DNA of 64,000 nucleotides from Candidatus Cloacimonadota bacterium (lineage in GTDB: Bacteria > Cloacimonadota > Cloacimonadia > Cloacimonadales > JAIOQZ01): assembly GCA_021108395.1 (NCBI GenBank), contig JAIOQZ010000023.1, positions 62,001 to 126,000 of the forward strand, written 5' to 3'. Made by a program: the position numbers and the translations under genes. The notes beneath the pieces are model-generated. The model was not told the origin of the DNA, made no database searches, and saw only the letters and a program-made list of their open reading frames with translations. Of this stretch, positions 4,507 to 60,081 are shown piece by piece. Each line of letters opens with the position of its first letter. Position 1 is the first letter of the stretch.

Positions 4507-4526
4507 CTTATGTTATGGAGGGCAAA

Positions 4527-6017
4527 ATGCGTATTTTGATGATTGTTGTTGCTGCTGTGATGATTTCAGGTTTGTTGGCAGTTGAAGAACCATTAGATAT
4601 TTCTTTTGAAATATACAGTGATACAACAATTTCAGCAATTATACCTGTGGGACAAGATAGTATTCCTATAACCATGAAGATAACTGTTCCAGACAGGATG
4701 AAAACAGATAGGGAGTTGTTAGAACACGCTCAGGAACAATTCGACAGAACGATTGGGTCAGCAGGTTTGTTCGCAAATGGTTATAATTTCATGATTACGG
4801 CAGCTACTTTCATCTTCATTATTGTGACTTCTATTATCGGGATAATGGGATTCAAGAGTTACAAAGATGTTAAAAAAACCACAGATGAATTACTAAAAAG
4901 TAAAACTGATCATGACAAATTGATTTCGGAGCTTAAGGGAAGGAAAGAAAGCAGAAGCACACAAAATCTGTTAAAGAAATATCGAGATGACTTTGATAAT
5001 CTAACACTTGTGATTGATGTAGCGAATAATGAAATTGCCAGCCTATCAGAAGTCGATGCAATTAAACTGGATGATTTTCTCAGAATAACAGATATATTGC
5101 GAGTATGGGATGATCAATTTACAGAGCAAGATTATTCGATACGTTGGAAAGCATATATCTATCTTAAGCAATTTCGATTTGCATTAAGAGAGGCTCTGGA
5201 AGGTATTGAAAGAGGCAAAAATGGAGAAAAATGGTATGAACGCCTGTCACAAACTTATACTATACTCAAGCAATATACTCAAGCTTTAGATGCAATAGAC
5301 AAAGTTCTTGAAATAAACCCCAACAACATAAATGCTTGGTATGCAAAGGGACTGATTCTCCGTGAAGATGAACAAGTTAAAGAAGCTCTACTTGTTATGA
5401 AGCATGTTACATATCTATCGCCTCAAATGTATCAGGCATGGGTAAGCATCTCAAACTACTACAGTAGATTGCGGGAGTTTGATAAGGCCGAAGAAGCTGG
5501 ACGTCAGGCATTAGATATTAGACCAGATGATGCAAAAGCACATTCCAATCTTGGCTTTTCGCTACTTAATCAACAGAAATATGAAGAGGCTCAGGTGGAG
5601 TATGACCGTGCGATATCATTCGACTCTAATCTAAAGGATGCATTGCAAGGGAAAGGAACTGCTCTAGCAAACTTGGGTAATTATGATGAAGCTCTAGAAG
5701 TTTTCCGTTATCTACTCGAACAGGATTCTTCTATATCAATCAATTGGAGTAATCTAGCTTACATTTACTTTAAACAGGATGATATCGAAACATCAAAGCA
5801 TATGCTTGAAATTGCCTTAAACCTGGACTCAAAAAATTTCACTGCATGGTATAATTTAGCACGACTTTATTCAAAGAAGAAACAAAAAATACCAATGTTG
5901 AACAGTCTGCGATGGGCCATTGAGCTAAATAAAGATTACAAAAGCGCTGCTCGTAAGACCGAGGACTTCAAAGCCTACAGTAAAGACTCTGACTTCATCG
6001 CGTTGACGAAGGAGTAA
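4527..6017 (+). CDS. Membrane-anchored TPR-repeat protein on the AT-rich insertion
   Basis: About 496 aa. It has an N-terminal signal-like hydrophobic segment (residues 1-18), a short exported domain, one membrane helix (about 88-108, ITAATFIFIIVTSIIGIMGF), a charged coiled-coil linker (about 112-140) and then tandem tetratricopeptide repeats to the end, such as ALDAIDKVLEINPNNINAWY and AHSNLGFSLLNQQKYEEA. The start is placed at the second in-frame ATG because GGAGG (4517-4521) overlaps the first codons after the upstream ATG at 4515. TPR arrays bind proteins; the partner is unknown. Codon use is unlike the neighbours, pointing to transfer. Confidence 0.8.
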   Translation: MRILMIVVAAVMISGLLAVEEPLDISFEIYSDTTISAIIPVGQDSIPITMKITVPDRMKTDRELLEHAQEQFDRTIGSAGLFANGYNFMITAATFIFIIVTSIIGIMGFKSYKDVKKTTDELLKSKTDHDKLISELKGRKESRSTQNLLKKYRDDFDNLTLVIDVANNEIASLSEVDAIKLDDFLRITDILRVWDDQFTEQDYSIRWKAYIYLKQFRFALREALEGIERGKNGEKWYERLSQTYTILKQYTQALDAIDKVLEINPNNINAWYAKGLILREDEQVKEALLVMKHVTYLSPQMYQAWVSISNYYSRLREFDKAEEAGRQALDIRPDDAKAHSNLGFSLLNQQKYEEAQVEYDRAISFDSNLKDALQGKGTALANLGNYDEALEVFRYLLEQDSSISINWSNLAYIYFKQDDIETSKHMLEIALNLDSKNFTAWYNLARLYSKKKQKIPMLNSLRWAIELNKDYKSAARKTEDFKAYSKDSDFIALTKE

Positions 6018-56391: not shown

Positions 56392-58608
56392 TTACTTGAG
56401 CAACAGCATCCGTTGAGTGTGGCTCGTGCCGCCTGCTTCCATGCGCAGCAGGTAAACCCCCGAAGCACAGCCTTCGGCCTCCCAGGTGACGGTGTGCTCG
56501 CCGGCGTCGCGGGGTTCGTCCACCAGCTGGGCCACGAAGCGGCCACGCACGTCGTAAACGCACAGTGTGGTGTGGGCTGGTTCTGTCAGGCTGAAGGCGA
56601 TGCTCGTGCTGGGGTTGAACGGATTGGGCCGGTTGCCCAGCAGTCGCGGCGCGGTGAACGGCGCTTCGTCGCCGCCGGTGGCGCTTTCGCCCCAGTGCCA
56701 TAGCTGCAACGTGCCGGTGACGTGCTGCGGGTTGGCGATGGCGCAGCCATTGTCCAACCAGGCTGCCCAGGTTTGCCCTACCGGTATGTTAAACACGTCC
56801 TCTCCGCTGGTGGACTGATACTGCGTGTGGAAGCTGTCGAACAGCATTGGCAACTGGTAGAACAGGTAGGAGTCGCCGGGGCCGACGAACCAGTTGACCG
56901 AGCCACCCTCGCCGGCGTGTTTGTAGAACAGCGGTCGCGTGCCTGTCTCGTCGATGTCGTCCCAAGTGACGATGCCGCTGACGACCTGCCCCACCGTCTC
57001 GTATTGCACGATGAATTTCCAGTCGTCAGTGTCGTCGTCCGGCTCGTTCACGGGGTTATACTCAGGCCAGGGCATGTCACCGGCGATGGGCGCTAAAAAG
57101 GTGTATTCGCCGCCGGGCGGCATGTTCTGAACCAGCAGGGCGTATTCGTCTTCGTCCACCGGGTAGTGGCCCAGTGGCGTCGAGACGTGCATGTAGTAGT
57201 CGCGGGCGTCGCCGACGATGAACACGCAGATGCCCTCGTTGTCGGTGAAGCCGACCATGTCGCTGCGCAGCGATCCGTCCATGATGGCGAGGATGATGCG
57301 TGCGCCGTCGATGGGCCGGTCGAACCAGTCATCGACGTGTATCTCGAGGGTGCCGACGTCCTCGGAGTAACGCTCGGTGACGCTGGTGAGGAAGCCGTCG
57401 GAGCGGATATCGAACGCGGTGCCCAGCACTCTGCCCCAGCCGTTTTCGTACACCAGCGGATTGTTGATGTAGCCGTTCACCGGCTCCCACGCCACCCATT
57501 CGCTCTCCCAGAACTCGTTCCAGGTGTGGTCGTTGCTGATGGTGAGGATGCTGGTGCAGGGAATGAGCGCCGTGCGGGCGGCGGCGGCGGTGATGTCGGC
57601 GTGTTCGCCGCAGCGACCGATGTGCTTGCGATAGATGCGCACCGGCTGATGCGGGCGCTCGTTGTTCGAGGTGAACGACATCGAATCGTTCACCCACTGC
57701 TGCACCGCCATGATGGCGTTGTCTGTGCTGCCGTCGCGCGCCCACATGTACTGCACGCCGTCCAACATGTCGGACAGCAGCGGGTAGTTGTCGTCGGCGT
57801 GAGTCCAGAACCACTCGCGCCAGAACTCGCCGTCCGCGTCGATGTTGTTCACATGCGTGTTGTTGTTCTCGATGACGTCAGGGTCGATGTAGGTGGGGAT
57901 GTCGTCGGTAATCTTGGGATGCACCAGGCACCAGTAGTAGATGTCGCGGGGGACGTCTATCTGCTCCACCTCGCCGTCCTCGTTCAGGCGGGTATAGCGC
58001 GTGGTTGACCAGTAATCGTCGTCTGGCCAGGCGCCCGTGTCGATGATCTCGACGTAGTCCAGCGCCGTGTCGATCTCGTACAGCAGCTCCGCATTCTGCA
58101 CGAACAGCTCAGGGAAGCTCCACTCGCTGCCGAAGAACTCGGTGCTGGTGTGCGCCACGCAAAAGGCTATCTCGTCCACCAGCGGGTTGTCGGCGTCGTT
58201 GATGATGCCGGCCCAGGTGTTCTGGTCAACGCTGCTGAGCTGGCAGAGCACGTTGGCGAGGTCGGTGCGCAGCCACGCGGGAGCGCGCTGAATGGCCTGG
58301 TCGGACGCATAGGTGAGGCCGTCGGCGCTCTGCACCAGCGACGCTATGCTGTTTTGCCAGCGCAGGCCCACATGCCCGCCGGCGTGCAGCAGCACATCCA
58401 GCGGCCATTCTTCGGCGATGTACCATTCCTCGCGGTCGAGGGGTTGCGGGTGGGCTTCCGGCTGGGGGGTGGTTTCCTCCGGCGCCACGTAGGTAGGCGC
58501 CTGCTCTCCGGCATACGCTCCCGGCGGCAGCGGCAGGGATTGCGTGAGGGGCGTGGCGAATGCGCTAACAAAGGATGCTACAAGAACACATGCAATAAGG
58601 AGTCTCAT
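56392..58608 (-). CDS. Secreted transglutaminase-fold protein with sorting tail
   Basis: 738 aa. Signal peptide (LLIACVLVASFVSAFA). A long N-terminal region leads to a transglutaminase-like core with Cys in IGRCGEHADITAAAA and His in NDHTWNEFWESEWVAWEP; Glu stands where the third catalytic Asp is usual. It is probably a protease or amidase of that fold. Beta domains follow (VDDWFDRPIDGARI), then the tail NRPNPFNPSTSIAFSL, VYDVRGRFVAQLV and RMLLLK. The start is the ATG at 58608 after AGGTATAGACAA; the frame extends upstream into the DUF3883 gene. Confidence 0.85.
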   Translation of the reverse strand: MRLLIACVLVASFVSAFATPLTQSLPLPPGAYAGEQAPTYVAPEETTPQPEAHPQPLDREEWYIAEEWPLDVLLHAGGHVGLRWQNSIASLVQSADGLTYASDQAIQRAPAWLRTDLANVLCQLSSVDQNTWAGIINDADNPLVDEIAFCVAHTSTEFFGSEWSFPELFVQNAELLYEIDTALDYVEIIDTGAWPDDDYWSTTRYTRLNEDGEVEQIDVPRDIYYWCLVHPKITDDIPTYIDPDVIENNNTHVNNIDADGEFWREWFWTHADDNYPLLSDMLDGVQYMWARDGSTDNAIMAVQQWVNDSMSFTSNNERPHQPVRIYRKHIGRCGEHADITAAAARTALIPCTSILTISNDHTWNEFWESEWVAWEPVNGYINNPLVYENGWGRVLGTAFDIRSDGFLTSVTERYSEDVGTLEIHVDDWFDRPIDGARIILAIMDGSLRSDMVGFTDNEGICVFIVGDARDYYMHVSTPLGHYPVDEDEYALLVQNMPPGGEYTFLAPIAGDMPWPEYNPVNEPDDDTDDWKFIVQYETVGQVVSGIVTWDDIDETGTRPLFYKHAGEGGSVNWFVGPGDSYLFYQLPMLFDSFHTQYQSTSGEDVFNIPVGQTWAAWLDNGCAIANPQHVTGTLQLWHWGESATGGDEAPFTAPRLLGNRPNPFNPSTSIAFSLTEPAHTTLCVYDVRGRFVAQLVDEPRDAGEHTVTWEAEGCASGVYLLRMEAGGTSHTQRMLLLK

Positions 58609-58612
58609 TTGT

Positions 58613-59791
58613 CTATACCTCTTTTGTTTTGTAGTTAATGTGATAGTTAACAGTTTGCTTACAGAAGTGATTACCGAAATTACAGCTTCTGCATCGCCAT
58701 ATCTTTGGTGCGTTGAAAACTCTGAAAACGAAGTAGAACCAGTATTGATCACCAAGCTCTATCGATTTCGCAAGCTCATTTGCAGTTATATAGAAGCCAT
58801 TGCGAAAATCTGAACTGGTTGTTGTTTTCACTTCGATATATTTCGTAGTCCCATCATGTTCAGTAATTTTTATATCATATCCAAGATGATCTTCTCGTTC
58901 TGACACGTGATCAATGCGTTGATCTACATCTGTGCAACCGATTTTCTTCAATCTTATCGCTTCTTTTCGAACAACAATATCTTCACCCAACTTCCCAATT
59001 TCCTGAAGCCTCAAATTATGTTTTTGCCAGTCACGCTTACCTTTTGATCGAGAATAGCGATTCATTTGAGTAGGTATCGGAGGACTGTCTAAGAATGTAG
59101 CGCCTAACTCGGGCAAGTCTTTAGATAAAATTGGTGCTTTACGATTGTGAAGCTTGGATAAGTCGATAATTGAACGTGTAAAGGCGTATATAGAAATATC
59201 TAATCCATTGTCTTCGATCAACTCTTGATAGAAATTATTTATTTCACGCTGCAAAAGAAAGAGAGTACCTTTAGTAATATTTAACTCTATATCCAAGAAA
59301 AAAGAATAGCATTTAAGATAATTTTCTGAAAAGAGATTAATGTATTGATCCGGGTAATACAAAAAAAGAAGCTTATGTTTAAATGTTGGAGCTAATCTGT
59401 TAGCTCTGATAGCTTCATCATTTTTATCTCTGGAAGCAATTAGAAGATCGTAGATTTCGTCTTTAACGGCAACGAAAACATCTGTTAGATTTGCCCCCCA
59501 TCTCCGTGCAAATATAAATTTCCCGTCTGCTTTTCTGCAATAAACACCAAATTTTGGCGCACGCCCTCCCTGCATACTTCCCAGTCTATTTGTTTCATAT
59601 TCTAATTTGTAACAGAAAGAATTGTGATTGTTTTTGCCTATAATATATTCATCTATAGAGAGTTCCTTTATCTGCTCTAAAGGGAATGTTTCAACAAATG
59701 ATTTACGAAGTGCTTCTGATTCAGCCCACTCCTCTGCCTTATCCTTTTGCCACTTCTTTGCATTAGCTGCTATTGCATCAACTTTGCTCAC
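58613..59791 (-). CDS. McrB-N-like domain fused to a DUF3883 nuclease-like domain
   Basis: 392 aa, markedly AT-rich. Residues about 35-185 match the region that precedes the AAA+ module in some McrB-type restriction proteins (SIDEYIIGKNNHNSFCYKLE, GGRAPKFGVY, FKHKLLFLYYPDQYINLFSE). Residues about 265-365 are DUF3883, with LGEDIVVRKEA, a GYDI strand (Asp306) and YIEVKTT (E320-V-K322), a PD-(D/E)xK-like nuclease signature. No ATPase or methylase is adjacent. The GTG start is eight bases after the upstream stop and follows GGGGGGGG. Likely a horizontally acquired defence-type protein; the function is inferred. Confidence 0.8.
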   Translation of the reverse strand: MSKVDAIAANAKKWQKDKAEEWAESEALRKSFVETFPLEQIKELSIDEYIIGKNNHNSFCYKLEYETNRLGSMQGGRAPKFGVYCRKADGKFIFARRWGANLTDVFVAVKDEIYDLLIASRDKNDEAIRANRLAPTFKHKLLFLYYPDQYINLFSENYLKCYSFFLDIELNITKGTLFLLQREINNFYQELIEDNGLDISIYAFTRSIIDLSKLHNRKAPILSKDLPELGATFLDSPPIPTQMNRYSRSKGKRDWQKHNLRLQEIGKLGEDIVVRKEAIRLKKIGCTDVDQRIDHVSEREDHLGYDIKITEHDGTTKYIEVKTTTSSDFRNGFYITANELAKSIELGDQYWFYFVFRVFNAPKIWRCRSCNFGNHFCKQTVNYHINYKTKEV

Positions 59792-59799
59792 GCCCCCCC

Positions 59800-60081
59800 C
59801 TACTTCCCATGCCCCTTTCGGCTCACGCCTATGGTGAAGCCGGTGAAGAGCGGTATCATGAAGCCGAGGTCGTACCACCAGCCGGTGTTGTGCACCTCGT
59901 AGAGGCGTACGTTGTCGCTGAAAAAGCTCCAGATGAGCGTTATCACCGCGATGAACCCGTGCCACATGCCCCACCAGAAATCCGCCGGGTCGTCGTCGTC
60001 GTGCTTGCCGTCGCCAGGGACGCAACCCGCCAGCGCCGCCAGAATCAGCAGCGCCAACAGTATAATCATCAGTCGCCGCAT
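59800..60081 (-). CDS. Lipoprotein with one membrane-like segment, unknown function
   Basis: 93 aa with a strong signal (LMIILLALLILAALAGC, lipobox LAGC), an acidic Asp run, then aromatic-rich hydrophobic stretches (GFIAVITLIWSFF, GFMIPLFTGFTIG). GGGAGA precedes the ATG. It has the GC content of its neighbours, unlike the DUF3883 gene that follows, so the AT-rich gene was inserted just behind it. Function unknown. Confidence 0.65.
   Translation of the reverse strand: MRRLMIILLALLILAALAGCVPGDGKHDDDDPADFWWGMWHGFIAVITLIWSFFSDNVRLYEVHNTGWWYDLGFMIPLFTGFTIGVSRKGHGK

Follow-up and report, generated by a model that had tools for sequence, protein, structure and literature searches.

A distant relative of the single-gene phage defence protein PD-T4-1, encoded by an AT-rich gene of a Cloacimonadota bacterium

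The window, the whole 64,000-nucleotide stretch of DNA analysed here, encodes a solo two-domain protein (Table 1) that is likely a single-protein phage defence of the PD-T4-1 family, acquired horizontally, in which a C-terminal NOV_C (DUF3883) domain would cut nucleic acid under the direction of the N-terminal domain (N-domain). Under this reading, the gene would have been gained by transfer and lodged in a row of same-strand genes. As a restriction-like nuclease, the protein would use a metal site made up of E270, D306, E320 and K322 in its NOV_C domain to cleave nucleic acid, phage DNA being the likeliest target, and the N-domain would bind the target or sense infection, and so direct or license the cut, with neither a motor nor a partner methylase. 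A role as a single-gene defence nuclease is well supported by full-length homology to PD-T4-1, a conserved PD-(D/E)xK-type site and the presence of homologues in defence islands. We infer that the protein is active as a nuclease, what it cuts, what its N-domain does and that it protects this host.

Homology to PD-T4-1 and distribution of the family

In 2022, a functional selection against T4 uncovered PD-T4-1, a single-gene anti-T-even system, in E. coli (Vassallo et al., PMC9519451). In that paper, 21 systems, PD-T4-1 among them, were each cloned and confirmed to lower phage plating, and protection by the ten T4-selected systems generally extends to T2 and T6. PD-T4-1 has been filed as a PD-(D/E)xK system (PMC10952713). 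The cited PD-T4-1 literature, in the parts available, holds no statement that PD-T4-1 acts as a nuclease or acts on DNA.

We observed that the PADLOC PD-T4-1 model (PDLC04021) matched the window protein in two stretches (E 1.1e-55). P0002, a plasmid-borne Salmonella protein, served as a stand-in for PD-T4-1 and was chosen by model score, not from the supplement of the source paper; it reached 679 bits, with almost the full length of the PADLOC PD-T4-1 model covered, and was therefore used as the representative. The window protein was co-linear with P0002 (28% identity over 341 columns, residues 27-355, E 6e-32, BLASTP). It shares with PD-T4-1 the pair of domains and their order along the whole length, the invariant residues of both domains, and a single gene that is patchy and mobile in its distribution. 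It differs in having only about 24-28% identity, and in grouping with a sister clade (with L029-L036) rather than with the clade of the E. coli protein (P0002, L037-L041).

The homology was thus full-length and co-linear, the PD-(D/E)xK-type residues were conserved, and the gene stood alone without a partner, as in the PD-T4-1 family. In the tree, the clade that holds the phage-tested protein of E. coli excluded the window protein, which is therefore a member of the wider PD-T4-1 family only. On sequence comparison, it is a divergent, distant full-length relative of PD-T4-1 and probably an ordinary member of a known defence family. A sequence-only reading of this locus had presented the two-domain architecture as new; it is that of PD-T4-1, and was already known (PMC9519451).

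A three-row alignment was used to scan the genomes of 84,980 species; in it, the L020 row joined two fragments of a frameshifted copy from a viral contig. The scan returned 13 full-length homologues, from Euryarchaeota, Verrucomicrobia, Bacillota, Desulfuromonadales, Ignavibacteriota, Bacteroidota, Pseudomonadota and Acidimicrobiaceae; homologues thus span archaea and at least seven bacterial phyla. It also returned McrB-like proteins with the N-domain alone in common. Single proteins as queries found no homologue, and alignment A6 as query did find them. The copy on the viral or mobile contig (L020:2690-3903) lies with an integrase, and its frameshift splits it into two ORFs. A phage-encoded origin was considered and rejected: a PHROGs search gave nothing of note, and phage records matched the NOV_C half only, not the whole protein. 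Copies of the P0002 gene, 98.9% identical, were present in 130 of 5,426 complete E. coli genomes (2.4%), and in the two contexts examined they lay on the chromosome, in a region that carries remnants of an integrase or transposase.

The tree split the family in two, with P0002 and L037-L041 (6 rows, support 100/100) on one side and all remaining sequences on the other. The window protein joined L029-L032 (support 100/99) on a long branch of 2.03 changes per column, and its clade has no member known as phage-tested. This defence family was defined in E. coli; these data add archaea and a further bacterial phylum to its range, and provide a small set of diverse natural variants for testing.

Gene integrity, base composition and locus

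The ORF is intact from the GTG at 59791 to the stop at 58613 on the minus strand, with no stop or frameshift, and in the alignment the GTG start agrees within a few residues with the starts of the 13 full-length homologues. Its GC content was 36.3% and its GC3 31.8%; the means of 45 other window genes were 58.2% and 72.2%, which puts the gene at z −4.1 for GC and z −4.7 for GC3. The AT-rich stretch coincides with the extent of the gene, from about 58,560 to 59,750, and the composition of the lipoprotein-like and transglutaminase-like neighbours is unrelated to it. Both domains together occurred in 1 of 125 genomes of the phylum, the window's own. The foreign composition and this distribution support horizontal acquisition as the best reading, in agreement with the recent transfer proposed earlier from base composition.

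Table 1. Positions of the PD-T4-1-like gene, its parts and its neighbours in the window
Feature	Positions	Strand	Basis or remark
PD-T4-1-like gene, 392 aa, GTG start	58613..59791	-	ORF list; PADLOC PD-T4-1 match
N-domain, residues 1-200, largely helices plus a short beta hairpin; candidate recognition domain	59192..59791	-	model and profile comparison
NOV_C / DUF3883 domain, residues 269-364; PD-(D/E)xK-type nuclease fold predicted	58700..58987	-	Pfam match, model, fold search
E270, putative metal-site Glu, first helix	58982..58984	-	invariant
D306, putative catalytic Asp	58874..58876	-	invariant
E320-V321-K322, (D/E)xK motif, predicted strand 316-323	58826..58834	-	invariant; model
Gap of 8 nt from upstream lipoprotein stop (59800) to GTG; run of seven G before GTG	59792..59799	-	sequence
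Upstream neighbour, small lipoprotein-like gene, outside the system	59800..60081	-	60% GC
Downstream neighbour, transglutaminase-like secreted protein, outside the system	56392..58608	-	occurs in most relatives of the phylum

The gene sits within a same-strand row with tight junctions on both sides, between the lipoprotein and transglutaminase genes as previously described. Only 4 nt separate its stop from the transglutaminase-like ATG (about 58608), and the ribosome-binding site of the latter gene lies inside the 3' end of the PD-T4-1-like gene. If the seven-G run (window 59792-59799) changed in length, the distance to the start codon would change with it. No mobile-element end, tRNA or repeats marking an insertion were found near the gene. 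An empty site was not demonstrable because the relatives are too distant: genes upstream of the transglutaminase orthologue differ among them, and the contig of the nearest relative ends there. A second AT-rich gene (window 4515-6017, + strand, 37% GC, GC3 32.5%) encodes a 500-residue, apparently secreted protein.

The gene might instead be a decaying or neutral passenger, recently acquired and unexpressed or no longer functional. The long branch, the absence of defence neighbours, the GTG start behind seven consecutive G and the foreign codon usage are consistent with this. However, no stop or frameshift was present, all family-invariant residues were kept in both domains, and the tight same-strand row would allow translation; we consider a passenger quite unlikely.

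Putative nuclease and recognition domains

Residues 269-364 matched Pfam NOV_C (PF13020) with 62.5 bits, against a cut-off of 22.1. In 2013, DUF3883 was described as a novel REase domain (PMC3710099). E270, D306, E320 and K322 were identical in all 15 full-length sequences compared. In the AlphaFold2 model of the whole protein (26-row alignment, pLDDT 87), E270 lies in a long helix, D306 just ahead of a strand, and E320-x-K322 in the next strand, a predicted layout that follows the order expected of a PD-(D/E)xK enzyme. The sequence-only reading had assigned D306, E320 and K322 to a DUF3883 domain and asked whether its core is arranged as a nuclease site; the invariance of these residues and their order in the model bear it out, and E270 can be added to them. 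Every fold match was weak, with no E below 0.001 for either domain.

We assessed the N-domain separately; modelled alone, it gave pLDDT 91.5 and pTM 0.87 (AlphaFold2). Profile-profile comparison aligned it with the N-terminus of McrB-like AAA+ proteins, streptococcal ones and their relatives (hhalign, 99.7% probability, E 3.5e-25). With tblastn, it matched McrB-like proteins of Acaryochloris and Marinomonas beside annotated McrC, and in both the gene for the N-domain-AAA+ protein adjoins McrC and Type I restriction genes. These comparisons confirm true homology between the N-domain and the start of McrB-type AAA+ proteins. Ten residues (D47, Y49, G52, C60, E64, K80, F81, G82, K138 and K140) were invariant in 15 of 15 sequences. 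The McrB-N-like assignment made earlier therefore stands, though the domain is not Pfam MrcB_N/DUF3578.

Assignment as DUF3578/ADAM (Pfam MrcB_N) was rejected, with no Pfam match and an hhalign probability of 0.1%. DUF3578/ADAM, a known methylcytosine reader, holds the same position in E. coli McrB, ahead of the effector part, but has no detectable sequence or profile similarity to the window N-domain; DUF3578-NOV_C fusions exist too (L011). We do not claim an HhH-GPD DNA glycosylase either (hhalign probability 0.4%). MutY/OGG1/Mag enzymes made up most of the top PDB hits for the N-domain model, none with an E better than 0.6 and with TM near 0.25. No fold match in the PDB was significant, and a search of solved structures by sequence gave no meaningful relative.

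McrBC-type (Type IV) restriction systems with this N-domain (for example L009 and L010) carry it in front, as the window protein does. The window protein differs in lacking the AAA+ motor and McrC, its putative nuclease being the NOV_C domain of the same chain. Pfam found no AAA domain in the protein, and no McrB or McrC was present among the window ORFs. PADLOC PDC-S36, TmtA and other NOV_C proteins have the NOV_C nuclease-type domain in common with it, but their N-terminal parts differ.

The unexplained N-half of PD-T4-1 is now tied to the N-terminus of McrB-type proteins, and this link gives a directly testable idea of how an orphan nuclease that has no methylase might distinguish phage DNA from that of its own cell, which its discoverers left unanswered (PMC9519451). 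Tentatively, and with more doubt than confidence, the N-domain may be an unnamed DNA-recognition module with a fold of its own, swapped between McrB motors (L009, L010, streptococcal McrB), NOV_C nucleases and the different, C-terminal nuclease-like domain of L005. This would make PD-T4-1 proteins the equivalents, in one chain and with no motor, of Type IV restriction enzymes, reading modified phage DNA directly. Recognition of modified or foreign DNA by the window protein, as suggested by the sequence-only reading, is something we only infer. The N-domain need not itself be a modified-base reader, because in one protein (L003:1255-3369, genome G061) it stands ahead of an EVE-like region and an AAA-type motor, judged by eye, so that two reader domains in tandem are possible there. 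A solo 371-residue protein from a genome of the same order (L005:1066-2181, genome G071) has the same N-domain and a different C-terminal region (..FFEVKC..ALGQIIEYA..), which has no Pfam match and looks like another nuclease type. This suggests a possible domain swap.

The same family could also act by abortive infection, in which the N-domain would sense a phage product and the nuclease would then attack the DNA or RNA of the host and kill the infected cell. In the source paper, 12 of the 21 systems act in this way, and 4 of 11 DNA-cleavage-type systems did not act directly (PMC9519451); its text, in the parts available, assigns PD-T4-1 to neither class. The window also holds no methylase to shield host DNA. 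On the other side, the remaining 7 of those 11 systems gave direct immunity (PMC9519451), and an N-domain found ahead of McrB motors suits target recognition better than sensing. We regard abortive infection as rather unlikely, and favour cutting of phage nucleic acid directed by the N-domain.

Defence genes near the homologues

No motor, methylase, McrB, McrC or other recognised defence gene was found among the 46 other window ORFs, with the exception of one PADLOC match (PD-T4-6 model, E 1.3e-25). The absence of motor, methylase and partner noted from the sequence was thus confirmed, and the earlier description was right in every point checked.

We scanned the ORFs around 14 homologue loci against PADLOC and judged the remaining ORFs by reading their sequences. 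Defence or conflict genes lay beside 10 of the 14, comprising restriction-modification, Dnd/Pbe, retron, Gabija helicase, AbiEi, TIR, DUF262 and AbiH genes. Eight were clear matches. One homologue is flanked by a Type I methylase and a DndD/PbeC protein (L031), and others adjoin a Type I restriction subunit (L032), a TIR-type effector (L033) or an HmaB-type methylase (L038); AbiEi is nearby in L034, a Type I restriction subunit accompanies L037, DpdB-like and DUF262-type restriction genes are present at L039, and L040 is described below. Two matches were weaker, a UvrD/GajB-like helicase (L029) and an AbiH-like protein recognised by eye and without a PADLOC match (L020). By PADLOC and reading, L030, L035, L036 and L041 had no clear defence neighbour. 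The rough background rate was 1 PADLOC match per 46 window ORFs at the same threshold (the PD-T4-6 model). Enrichment of the homologues near defence genes is likely from these 14 loci, counted without a matched control. The single-gene defence system suggested by the sequence-only reading, and its expectation of the same architecture near defence genes, therefore hold at the level of the family (PD-T4-1 homology, conserved site, relatives in defence islands); the window locus itself has no defence neighbours.

These neighbourhoods also bear on whether the protein could be a housekeeping DNA-repair or recombination nuclease with no part in defence, given that the predicted fold of the C-domain resembles Holliday junction resolvases. 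Hjc resolvases, which are PD-(D/E)xK enzymes, ranked among its top hits in the PDB (E 0.3-0.5, with probabilities as high as 0.84), and L030, L035 and L041 lie among ordinary chromosomal genes. A housekeeping role is nevertheless highly improbable: the distribution is very patchy, in the phylum as in E. coli, relatives lie in defence islands, and PD-T4-1 came from a selection for phage resistance (PMC9519451).

The Pantoea dispersa locus (L040:7990-11080) carries the homologue right after an integrase at the tmRNA gene, followed by the retron III genes (reverse transcriptase and phosphoribosyltransferase) and the GajB helicase. This locus is a compact defence island at ssrA.
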